Made by a program: the position numbers and the translations under genes
Part shown: positions 4,824-8,602 of the stretch, piece after piece
Layout of the letters: each line of letters begins with the position of its first letter
How positions within the stretch are numbered: the stretch's first letter is position 1
Source: Desulfovibrio sp.
GTDB lineage: Bacteria; Desulfobacterota; Desulfovibrionia; Desulfovibrionales; Desulfovibrionaceae
Length of the DNA stretch: 64,000 nucleotides
Assembly (NCBI GenBank): GCA_016218665.1
Contig: JACRDI010000020.1
Span: forward strand, 1 to 64,000
Direction: 5' to 3'
Notes under the pieces: model-generated
Told to the model about the DNA's origin: nothing
The model's database searches: none
Seen by the model: only the letters and a program-made list of their open reading frames with translations

Positions 4824-4827
<4 letters not shown>
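3649..4827 (-). CDS. proB: Glutamate 5-kinase
   Basis: First enzyme of proline synthesis: phosphorylates L-glutamate to glutamyl-5-phosphate in the cytoplasm. An N-terminal amino-acid-kinase domain is visible (VVKVGSAVL, VLVSSGAVAAG, IINENDTVA, FGDNDTLASLMVDLVGAD, VGSGGMYSKLRAA). It is followed by a C-terminal PUA domain (from ~residue 290: SLSVDAGAANALREKGKSLL). The length of 392 residues fits the two-domain form. The ATG at 4827 has GGAGGAGG immediately upstream and overlaps the obgE stop as ATGA, so translation is coupled. proA is not in the window. Confidence 0.96.
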
Positions 4828-6026
<1,199 letters not shown>

Positions 6027-6113: not shown

Positions 6114-6383
6114 TTAGGCGCTCACGGGGAGAATGTGCACCCGGGTCTTGACCTTGTTGTTGCGGGTGTACTTCTCGTACTTCACCTCGCCGTCAACCAG
6201 GGCGAACAGGGTCCAGTCCTTGCCCACGCCGACGTTCTTGCCGGGGTGGATGCTGGTGCCGACCTGGCGCACGAGGATGTTGCCGGCCAGAACCTTCTGG
6301 CCGCCGAAGCGCTTCACGCCGCGGCGCTGTCCGGCGCTGTCGCGTCCGTTTCTGGAGCTGCCGCCTGCTTTTTTGTGAGCCAT
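6114..6383 (-). CDS. rpmA: 50S ribosomal protein L27
   Basis: 89 residues, beginning [16 protein letters not shown] and containing the L27 signature [19 protein letters not shown]. The N-terminus reaches the peptidyl-transferase centre in the 50S subunit. There is no cleavable N-terminal extension of the Firmicutes type. Second gene of the rplU-rpmA-obgE-proB unit, 18 bases after rplU. Confidence 0.98.
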
Positions 6384-6401: not shown

Positions 6402-6713
6402 TTAGGCCTGGATGGCTTTGACCTTCAGGCTGGTGTAGTCCTGACGGTGGCCGGTCTTCTTGTGGAAGTCGTTGCGGCGCTTCTTCTTGAAGATGATGAT
6501 CTTCTCGCCGCGGCCGTGACCCAGAACCTCGCAGGCGACCTTGGCGCCGTCGAGGTAGGGAGCTCCGATCTTGGTCTGGCCGCCATCGGCCACCAGAAGG
6601 ACTTTGTCCAGGCTCACCTCGGTGCCGGGCTCGGCCTGCAGAAGCTCAACCTTGAACTCGAGTCCCTGTTCCACGCGGTACTGCTTACCGCCGGTCTCGA
6701 TGATTGCGAACAT
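6402..6713 (-). CDS. rplU: 50S ribosomal protein L21
   Basis: 103 residues: MFAIIETGGKQYRV at the start and the 23S rRNA-binding C-terminus KKRRNDFHKKTGHRQDY, both diagnostic for L21. The ATG at 6713 is chosen because GGAGG lies 8 bases upstream; an earlier in-frame ATG at 6728 overlaps that box. First gene of its operon, with a good promoter just upstream. Confidence 0.98.
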   Translation of the reverse strand: MFAIIETGGKQYRVEQGLEFKVELLQAEPGTEVSLDKVLLVADGGQTKIGAPYLDGAKVACEVLGHGRGEKIIIFKKKRRNDFHKKTGHRQDYTSLKVKAIQA

Positions 6714-6745
6714 TGCGAATACCTCCATCGCGTAAGAGGCGTTCT

Positions 6746-6806: not shown

Positions 6807-7532
6807 TTATGCCCTGGCAAGCACCAGCACGTCCACTCTTTTCGCGCCGGCGGCGCACATTGCCCGCGCGCATTCTTCCAGGGTCGCGCCCGTGGTCATT
6901 ATGTCGTCCACCAGCAGCGCGTTCCTGCCTTCAAGCACCTCCGCCCGCGCGGCAAAGGCTCCGCGGATGTTCTCCGCACGCTCCTCGCGCGCCAGCTCCA
7001 TCTGCGGGGTGGTGCGGCGCACGCGCGAAAGCGCTCCCTGCAGGATGGGCAGCCGCCGCCGCGCCGCCAGCAGCCGGGCGATCTCCCGGCTCTGGTTGAA
7101 GCCACGGCTCAGCAGCCTGCGCGGGTGCAGGGGCACGGGAACGAGGCAGTCGGCCTCCAGCAGCTCCGGGCAGCGCCCGCCCGCCTCCTCGAAGCCAGCC
7201 AGCAGCGTCTCCTGCAGCTCCCGGCCGCAGTCCAGCCGGCCCTCGAACTTGTAGGCCAGGATCAGCTCCTTGAGCCGCCCCTCGTAGGCTCCGCAGGCCA
7301 CGGCAACGCCCCAGGGCCTCGGCCGCTCCACGCAGCGGGCGCACAAGCCCGCGCCCATACCCGGCTCTGCGCAGCCGGGACAGGGGTGGCCCATCGCCCT
7401 GCCCTGTTCCGCGCAATCCGGGCACGGTCCCCGGCCCGCCGCCAGCACAGCGCCACAGGCCGGGCAGCGCGCCTCGGTCAGCAGGGCCGCGCCCAGCACG
7501 GGCCGCATCCAGCGCAGCAGAAGCTCACGCAC
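6807..7532 (-). CDS. ComF family phosphoribosyltransferase-like protein
   Basis: About 241 residues. An N-terminal zinc-finger-like part has four CxxC pairs (CPAC, CPDC, CPGC, CARC). It is followed by the PRTase domain with the PRPP-loop LVDDIMTTGATLEECA and the ComF signature VPVPLHPRRLLSRGFNQ. ComF proteins act in DNA uptake in some bacteria; the enzymatic substrate is unknown and competence here is not implied. Start: a GTG at 7532 overlaps the stop of the upstream gene by 8 bases with GGGGG upstream; the ATG at 7508 is an alternative. Confidence 0.88.
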   Translation of the reverse strand: MRELLLRWMRPVLGAALLTEARCPACGAVLAAGRGPCPDCAEQGRAMGHPCPGCAEPGMGAGLCARCVERPRPWGVAVACGAYEGRLKELILAYKFEGRLDCGRELQETLLAGFEEAGGRCPELLEADCLVPVPLHPRRLLSRGFNQSREIARLLAARRRLPILQGALSRVRRTTPQMELAREERAENIRGAFAARAEVLEGRNALLVDDIMTTGATLEECARAMCAAGAKRVDVLVLARA

Positions 7533-8142
7533 CGTTTCGCCCCCGCAAGGCCATGAGCGCGGCGTCGCGCCCCAGCTCACGCACCAGGCGCACCGCGTCC
7601 GGGTGCGAGGCCAGGTCTCCGGCGGCATCCATCCCGCGCAGGCCCAGGGGCTCGGACAAGGTCAGCCCGAAGTTCACCAGGAAATATTTCAAGGTAAACC
7701 GTGCGCCCTCGAACAGCTTCTGCCCCGAGGGCTGGCCGGCCACAAGGCACGCATACGCCGGCCTGTCCCGCAGCTCCATTATCCACGCATCGCCCTTGCG
7801 GCGCGCCTCCCAAAAGCGCTGGGAGCGGTCCACCCAGGTCTTGCAGCGCGAGGGCACCCCGTAGAAATAGATGGGCGACGCGAACACCACCACCGGAGCG
7901 CGCACGAGCACCGCGAACAGCTCCTCGGCCTGGTCCTTCCGGGCCAGCACGCAGCGCGAGAGCCTGTCGCCCGCGCAGGCGCGGCAAGCCAGGCAGGGCA
8001 GCACCTCATAGTCGCGCAGCGGGACGATCTTGGCCGTCGCGCCCGCCTCCCGCACGGCCAGTTCCAGCAGTTCGGCGGCAGCGTCGGAATTGCCCCCAGC
8101 CCGGTGGCTGCAGGCGATGATGGCAACGTCGGCGTCCCACAT
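7525..8142 (-). CDS. Iron-sulfur flavoprotein / NAD(P)H-dependent FMN reductase family
   Basis: 205 residues. Flavodoxin-like fold with an FMN phosphate loop (CSHRAGGNSDAAAE), a compact cysteine motif CLACRACAGDRLSRC (Cx2Cx2Cx7C) like the [4Fe-4S] site of archaeal iron-sulfur flavoproteins, and the conserved SPIYFYGVPSRCKTWVDRSQRFW segment. It probably transfers electrons in the cytoplasm; the partner is unknown. The ATG at 8142 has GGGGG upstream. It is 26 bases downstream of the candidate selenoprotein and overlaps comF, so the three look like one operon. Confidence 0.85.
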   Translation of the reverse strand: MWDADVAIIACSHRAGGNSDAAAELLELAVREAGATAKIVPLRDYEVLPCLACRACAGDRLSRCVLARKDQAEELFAVLVRAPVVVFASPIYFYGVPSRCKTWVDRSQRFWEARRKGDAWIMELRDRPAYACLVAGQPSGQKLFEGARFTLKYFLVNFGLTLSEPLGLRGMDAAGDLASHPDAVRLVRELGRDAALMALRGRNGA

Positions 8143-8168
8143 GCTCGTTCCCCCCGCTTCCCTGAACG

Positions 8169-8390
8169 CTAGTCCCTGCGCCGCACGCGCGCGGCGATCC
8201 AGCCCCCGGCCTCCGGGCCCCTGTCCCACTCCAAAGCCCAGCCGCCAGCGATGAATACCGCGTCCTCCACATTGGGCGCAAGCTTCGCCTGGACCAGGAA
8301 CTCCAGCGCATCATCGCGCGAGAAACGGAGGTGCCACCCGACCTCCATGCCCACGCCTCAGCACTTGTCGCGCAGATCGATGGTCGTCAT
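8169..8390 (-). CDS. Candidate small selenoprotein (in-frame UGA read as Sec)
   Basis: An ATG at 8390 with a GGAG box 5 bases upstream opens a frame reading MTTIDLRDKC, then TGA (8358-8360), then 62 further residues (GVGMEVGWHLRFSRDD...) to a TAG at 8169. Read as selenocysteine, the TGA gives a 73-residue protein with a Cys-Sec pair at 10-11. A SECIS-like hairpin begins a few bases after the TGA. A caller that stops at TGA would report only a shorter ORF from an ATG at 8348 (59 residues) or GTG at 8354. I do not recognise the family. The same-operon iron-sulfur flavoprotein suggests a redox role. The alternative is simply the shorter ORF. Confidence 0.55.
8321..8352 (-). promoter_or_regulatory. 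SECIS-like hairpin just after the in-frame UGA
   Basis: On the minus strand GGAGGT (8341-8346) pairs perfectly with ACCTCC (8327-8332) around an 8-base loop CGGGTGGC. A lower stem GGGCAT/GTTTCT extends it with one mismatch and some G-U pairs. The apical loop starts about 17 bases after the UGA and contains a GU, the spacing and loop feature known for bacterial SECIS elements that recruit SelB. Found by eye; no folding energy was computed. Confidence 0.5.
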
Positions 8391-8447
8391 TGATGCTCCG
8401 ATGTTGTTTCGAATATGCCTCCGGCGGCCCGCGGACAGCCCCGCATG

Positions 8448-8488
8448 CCGCTCCTTTCCAGGACGGAAGCCGTCCTGGAAAGGAGCGG
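8448..8488. repeat. Perfect 19-bp inverted repeat
   Basis: Two perfect 19-bp arms (starting CCGCTCCTTTCCAGGACGG) separated by AAG, between the candidate selenoprotein and the end of the ppiD-like gene. No T-tract follows on either strand, so it is not an obvious terminator. The rest of 8391-8738 holds only this palindrome and the double-hairpin element at 8603-8651; no gene is seen. Confidence 0.7.
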
Positions 8489-8602
8489 GAGCCGCCCCGG
8501 CAAGGAGCTGGAACTTCAGCGCCGGCCTTCTGTGCCGCCACTGCCCTCCGCCGGATTCCTGACCGGCCACGGCCGGGCAGGCTTCCGGCGGCACGCGGGG
8601 GC

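Follow-up and report, generated by a model that had tools for sequence, protein, structure and literature searches.

A small gene with an in-frame TGA codon in Desulfovibrionales: a probable selenoprotein remotely related to TusA/SirA sulfur carriers

A small, broken-looking gene of Desulfovibrio sp. (GenBank assembly GCA_016218665.1) is very probably read through with selenocysteine (Sec) at UGA codon 11, as judged from a comparison of its homologues, and the predicted selenoprotein occurs commonly within a single order of sulfate reducers. The gene lies in a stretch of 64 000 nucleotides (contig JACRDI010000020.1, positions 1 to 64 000), which is referred to below as the window and to which all unprefixed coordinates apply; the features discussed are collected in Table 1. 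The best explanation, and in our view a likely one, is a genuine selenoprotein that would act as a TusA-like Cys–Sec redox or sulfur shuttle with a flavoprotein reductase of its own.

Table 1. Positions of the selenoprotein gene, its parts and its conserved neighbours in the window.
Feature	Position	Strand	Basis
Selenoprotein gene, 73 residues, Sec11 (CUG motif), stop TAG	8169..8390	-	Sequence reading, homologue comparison
GGAG Shine–Dalgarno-like site, 5-nt spacer to ATG	8396..8399	-	Direct reading
In-frame TGA read as Sec; column is Cys in paralogues and the reactive Cys in TusA-like domains	8358..8360	-	Homologue and profile alignment
SECIS-like hairpin, 7 pairs (6 Watson–Crick plus outer T–G), 8-nt loop; first paired base +14	8326..8347	-	Covariation, synonymous-codon control
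FMN reductase/flavodoxin-fold flavoprotein, CxxCxxCx7C, conserved downstream neighbour	7525..8142	-	Pfam, synteny
ComF/GntX-like phosphoribosyltransferase gene, next in conserved order (start inferred)	6807..7532	-	Synteny
rplU (ribosomal protein L21), frequent syntenic flank	6402..6728	-	Synteny
rpmA (ribosomal protein L27), frequent syntenic flank	6114..6383	-	Synteny
obgE GTPase, frequent syntenic flank	4824..6026	-	Synteny

The ATG (8390-8388, minus strand) opens ten codons, MTTIDLRDKC, the tenth of which is a TGC (Cys) codon directly 5′ of the TGA; 62 open codons then follow and end at a TAG (8171-8169, minus strand). With the TGA translated as Sec the product reads MTTIDLRDKCUGVGMEVGWHLRFSRDDALEFLVQAKLAPNVEDAVFIAGGWALEWDRGPEAGGWIAARVRRRD. 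This re-reading agrees with an earlier sequence-only reading of the same DNA, which had described the GGAG, the ATG, the ten codons, the TGA after Cys, the 62 codons and the TAG. It had also held that a caller stopping at TGA would yield just a shorter 3′ frame or nothing, and the mechanical open-reading-frame caller did return only a 61-residue 3′ frame with a GTG start at 8354. A separate long hairpin (8447-8489) was observed in the leader between a PpiD-like gene and the selenoprotein gene; it has exact 17-base arms (8450-8466 and 8470-8486) with further pairs outside them, the arm sequence has no other copy in the genome and folding of 8400-8520 gave a z score of -6.6.

To find homologues, 199 genomes from the window's own family (Desulfovibrionaceae) were searched in six frames at a cutoff of E <= 0.01. 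Matches were found in 108 of the 199 genomes and in 25 of 44 genera; counted as rows, there were 116 matches, 107 with exactly one TGA, eight without a stop codon and one with two TAA codons. The 107 one-TGA rows come from 107 different genomes. Genes were read at the DNA level for 82 of these rows, all 82 encoding distinct proteins, and in every one the stop codon was TGA, never TAA or TAG, and stood directly after a Cys codon. With a one-TGA homologue in 107 of the 199 family genomes and TGA in 82 of the 82 genes read, conservation of this codon is not a matter of chance. The vicinal Cys before Sec is thus found in 82/82 genes of this first set, and in 14/15 of a set of further Sec loci; L250 (G057:C13:34039-34263) is a Sec homologue in which Gly takes the place of this Cys (IGUG).

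An order-wide search with a 64-row alignment of family members matched 161 of 297 genomes at E <= 0.001, Cys paralogues being included in this count. Reading of individual genes showed TGA forms in three further families of the order (f108, f110 and f112), and the TGA gene is also present in genomes G015 and G612. In a draw of 395 genomes from the phylum ten matched at E <= 0.01; six of these were strong and all belonged to the window's own family, and the other four, from outside it, were weak, partial and without TGA.

The possibility that the TGA is an ordinary stop, closing a ten-codon leader peptide ahead of a separate protein that starts at GTG 8354 or at the ATG of codon 15, was weighed against these data and is considered very improbable. 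Start codons do occur shortly 3′ of the TGA in the window, as this explanation would need, but the codons upstream of the TGA are conserved as DLRxKC and change mainly in third positions. Asp5 and Cys10 are invariant in all 82 Sec genes read, and over all pairs of genes the six codons before the TGA differ 4495, 3371 and 9433 times at codon positions 1, 2 and 3, respectively, an excess at the third position that is the pattern expected of coding sequence. The ten upstream codons, whose lack of conservation had been named beforehand as a ground for abandoning the Sec assignment, are therefore conserved. Moreover, homologues have Leu, Gln, Val or Ala in place of Met15, Cys paralogues cross the site in a single frame and the hairpin 3′ of the TGA covaries (see below). 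An ordinary stop with a downstream start was accordingly rejected on the upstream codon conservation and the Cys paralogues.

The sequence-only reading had proposed a homologue search for Cys or Sec in the TGA column, and both were found, the former at separate loci that encode proteins with Cys at the Sec position, mostly in a CGLVP motif. The residue before this Cys in the paralogues is T, C, A, S, M or Y. One such paralogue is encoded in the window's genome outside the window (G000:C45:81195-81410); in a single BLASTP comparison it showed 25% identity to the window protein over 71 residues (E = 0.001). The Cys subfamily with the motif xCGLVP, whose members often terminate in LDY or LMxF, was observed at this locus and at L237, L238, L248, L252, L253, L255, L258 and L259. 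The one protein of the subfamily that was searched had no match in Pfam, and at eight CGLVP-type loci none of seven query neighbour genes was found within the fetched flank. The CGLVP-type proteins look like a separate subfamily that is not linked to the flavoprotein. A different kind of replacement occurs at L254 (G630:C7:10374-10589), a syntenic orthologue in which ACPC replaces CUG and whose genus mates L249 and L251 keep CUG; from its sequence and position, L254 is taken as a natural Sec-less form. Comparison across these genes thus indicates that UGA corresponds to Sec and that Cys is its equivalent.

For the description of the hairpin the T of the TGA is numbered +1. On the minus strand the core stem is formed by GGAGGT (8346-8341), which starts at +15, and ACCTCC (8332-8327), and encloses the 8-nt loop CGGGTGGC. 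A perfect 6-bp stem with an 8-base loop and a lower extension near the TGA had been noted before; all of this is seen, the extension amounting to one T–G pair. Taken alone, the window hairpin is only modestly unusual: folding of the region, which had been suggested at the same time, gave z = -1.93, with five of 200 shuffles equally stable, and single-sequence folding elsewhere gave z = -1.4 (L014) and -4.0 (L030). A search of 8100-8500 against Rfam returned seven matches, all of them below threshold and to unrelated families.

The alignment of homologues is more informative. Among 73 distinct rows 98.4% of the cells of the seven-pair stem are standard pairs, a value as high as this being reached in none of 500 shuffles, and the covariation score of the stem was likewise reached in 0/500; when the partner was slid by 1-3 columns pairing dropped to 39-63%. 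The number of pairs changed on both sides and that of further pair types are unexceptional (34 and 125 of 500 shuffles, respectively, reach the observed values). Pair +19/+30 is formed in all 82 genes, as GC in 36, AT in 36 and GT in ten, and pair +15/+34 is GC in 77, CG in four and broken in one. In 80/82 genes +30 falls on the silent third position of a codon for Tyr or His, and it tracks +19: A is matched by T in 36/36 cases and G by C in 34/44 (Fisher test, 6e-14, with shared descent ignored). Stems of at least 6 bp are present in 82/82 Sec genes, compared with a mean of 33/82 and a maximum of 42 after synonymous-codon resampling (200 runs), which rules out that the hairpin is a mere by-product of the protein sequence. 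Such stems occur in one of 17 Cys-type entries (16 distinct genes). In more distant Sec genes the hairpin is kept with altered letters, in some of them in a shifted register (L240, L241, L249 and L257).

The window's genome, which is 84% complete, contains the components needed for Sec insertion: selA (603 bits), selB (378 bits, above the cutoff) and a tRNA-Sec with anticodon TCA (86.5 bits; gathering score, 47), together with a selD that itself has one in-frame TGA. An absence of selB or selC, which would have spoken against Sec, is thus not what was found. There are also three matches to fdhA with one TGA each, of which one lies at the end of a contig; in two the TGA context is UHSP. The selB cutoff was passed by 167 of the 199 family genomes, some of which have no match to the new gene (for example G017). 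The assignment of the TGA as a Sec codon, put forward from the sequence of the window, has gained support from the conservation of the TGA, the Cys paralogues, the covarying hairpin and the Sec machinery.

Searched alone against Pfam and NCBIfam, the window protein gave no convincing match, and the sequence-only reading had not recognized its family. The 64-row alignment was used for searches of Pfam, NCBIfam and the PDB. None of the 64 members matched PF01206 at E <= 1. In Pfam the lowest E value, 0.0058, came from a single member and an unrelated family; the matches in NCBIfam release 20 did not rise above chance level (best E = 0.064), and nothing in the PDB was matched by the profile at E <= 10. 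A TusA profile was compared directly with the family: PF01206 brought 30 loci, of which the 17 in which a script recognized a CPxP-type domain were used and the other 13 were left out. With hhalign, the family aligned with the 17 TusA-type domains at 68.6% over 68 columns, DLRDKC-U being paired with DARGLS-C. Column-shuffled TusA profiles reached at most 11.0 (200 shuffles), the reversed profile 0.4 and decoys at most 1.0 (118 windows from neighbourhood ORF clusters, some of them antisense frames), and a chance profile match to TusA is ruled out by these three controls. When the seven Cys paralogues were aligned by themselves the value was 65.5%, with maxima of 5.4 for shuffles and 3.7 for decoys. 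Circularly permuted TusA profiles scored up to 40.1% (family) and 61.1% (Cys group); because these profiles keep long blocks in order, the values are read as a match spread along the domain and not as a negative control.

The TusA/SirA fold is beta-alpha-beta-alpha-beta-beta. An AlphaFold model made from nine sequences only had a pLDDT of 69.9, with residues 1-16, Sec included, below 50; in this model, which is weak at the N-terminus, no helix follows Sec, so that the first TusA helix is missing. A Foldseek search with this model found nothing at E <= 0.001 and no TusA among the best 50 matches listed.

From the profile comparison it is concluded that the new selenoprotein would be a remote relative of the TusA/SirA sulfur carriers that falls outside PF01206 and has Sec at the position of the catalytic Cys. 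Since none of the 64 members matches PF01206, the kinship is remote and has the profile comparison as its sole basis. Like TusA/SirA (PF01206), the new protein has about 70-80 residues and an N-terminal D(L/A)Rxxx followed by a reactive chalcogen residue, and the profile alignment runs along the domain. Unlike them, it has CUGxG in place of CPxP and no Pfam match; relative to DLRGLxCPxP the reactive Cys is changed to Sec, which stands between a Cys and a Gly (DLRxKC-U-G).

The CPxP motif is named for the SirA-like domain in the available part of PMC5322559, where YedF, a protein with SirA-like and DsrE-like domains, is described in other bacteria as adjoining the genes for Sec lyase and SelD. 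YedF is thus a further case of a SirA-type domain tied to selenium biology, whereas the new protein, with 73 residues, is without the DsrE-like domain and has Sec in the protein itself. Rhodanese-like and DsrE-like selenoproteins, as covered in the accessible text of PMC13188914, resemble it in having Sec in sulfur-transfer families, but they belong to PF00581 and PF02635 and show the motifs UxxG, UxxS, CxU and UxxC.

Gene neighbourhoods were compared by tblastn in 35 loci, namely the window and 34 regions chosen, non-randomly, for long contigs and diverse genera. The flavoprotein gene lies directly downstream in 29/35 and is not adjacent in 6/35; comF is present in 29/35 loci and rplU further on in 21/35. 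On the upstream side, and on the same strand, a metallo-beta-lactamase-fold gene was found in 26/35 loci and a nitroreductase gene in 19/35. The flavoprotein, comF and metallo-beta-lactamase-fold genes accompany the selenoprotein gene in all of 15 further Sec loci, two of which come from genomes among the 35. The selenoprotein gene therefore usually stands between the metallo-beta-lactamase-fold gene and the flavoprotein gene, and the association with the latter is one that the comparison of loci brings out; the window itself has a PpiD/SurA-like gene where the metallo-beta-lactamase-fold gene is usual. Five of the six loci without an adjacent flavoprotein (L184, L185, L189, L190 and L193) share a neighbouring gene for a membrane protein that is presumably GDT1-like.

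The members of the iron–sulfur flavoprotein (ISF) family have an FMN reductase/flavodoxin fold and a compact CxxCxxC...C motif, both of which recur in the neighbour flavoprotein, a putative member; the motif was found in 24 of 29 copies. The neighbour had been read from the sequence as an iron–sulfur flavoprotein. Its flavoprotein nature is borne out by a Pfam match to FMN_red (E = 3.6e-15), and the CxxCxxCx7C motif is present; the Fe–S cluster stays putative.

These neighbours also bear on a reading in which the selenoprotein would serve in detoxification (of peroxide, electrophiles, arsenic or mercury) as a Cys–Sec thiol–disulfide reductase, accompanied by the nitroreductase and the metallo-beta-lactamase-fold protein, the likeness to TusA being a matter of descent or fold only. 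The frequency of the two companion genes upstream and on the same strand (19/35 and 26/35) is in keeping with it, but they are specific to no single stress, and the neighbouring comF, rplU, rpmA and obgE are suggestive of a stable locus of housekeeping genes, in which case the neighbours may be uninformative. We regard this role as rather unlikely.

In the mechanism that we favour, that of a TusA-like shuttle, UGA codon 11 is very probably decoded as Sec under the direction of the hairpin immediately 3′ of it. The selenol would then attack an oxidized sulfur substrate (a persulfide, a polysulfide or some other donor, of the sulfane-sulfur or disulfide kind), and the neighbouring Cys would resolve the adduct as a Cys–Sec selenenylsulfide or take over the sulfur. 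The neighbour flavoprotein with its compact Cys cluster would re-reduce the pair, NAD(P)H or ferredoxin supplying the electrons. We infer the shuttle role, the reduction by the flavoprotein and the nature of the substrate (sulfane sulfur or disulfide) from the features set out above.

A bolder form of this proposal, which is offered tentatively, is that the protein may be the first Sec-containing TusA-type chalcogen carrier: its selenol would carry sulfane sulfur as Se-S(-) and unload it via the neighbouring Cys, and with its own Fe–S flavoprotein reductase it would form a module for sulfur handling that is specific to this order of sulfate reducers. The TusA kinship seen by profile comparison would also suit a selenoprotein that serves selenium trafficking instead of sulfur or disulfide reduction and carries selenium, as a perselenide, towards SelD or a tRNA-modifying enzyme, a role of the sort proposed for SirA-type proteins associated with selenium, and the location of YedF, with its SirA-like domain, beside Sec lyase and SelD genes elsewhere (PMC5322559, in the part available) points the same way. 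The recurrent neighbours in the 35 loci are, however, redox, metallo-beta-lactamase-fold, comF and ribosomal genes, and we think such a role improbable.

The family appears in none of the catalogues searched (Pfam, NCBIfam and a table of 119 selenoprotein families), and an earlier listing in a supplement is possible. That table, in a 2026 review (PMC13188914), has no SirA/TusA entry, and neither name occurs in the available text; the 'hypothetical protein' families DG, DW and DF given there carry NCBIfam accessions, and none of the corresponding models matches the 64 members at E <= 1. By word search, the texts of a 2022 review (PMC9312934) and of a 2016 survey (PMC5029168) name neither SirA nor TusA. 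The new-families section of the deep-Sep paper contains none resembling the new selenoprotein, and none alike is among the selenoproteins of D. vulgaris and D. desulfuricans listed in the available part of PMC1794560, although these strains may not carry the gene. The family is described in none of the titles and abstracts that the literature searches listed; the D. gigas genome paper, in its available part, reports nine selenocysteine-containing proteins (its Table S4), and that table and other supplements may list it.

The results would add a selenoprotein family that is present in about half of the sampled genomes of the window's family (107/199) and in three other families of the order, that a caller based on stop codons truncates and that the curated libraries searched are without. 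The 82 aligned SECIS-like hairpins are a possible training set for SECIS models. If the link to TusA holds, selenocysteine would be found on a sulfur-carrier scaffold, and the question of why a sulfate reducer spends selenium on sulfur handling would become testable.
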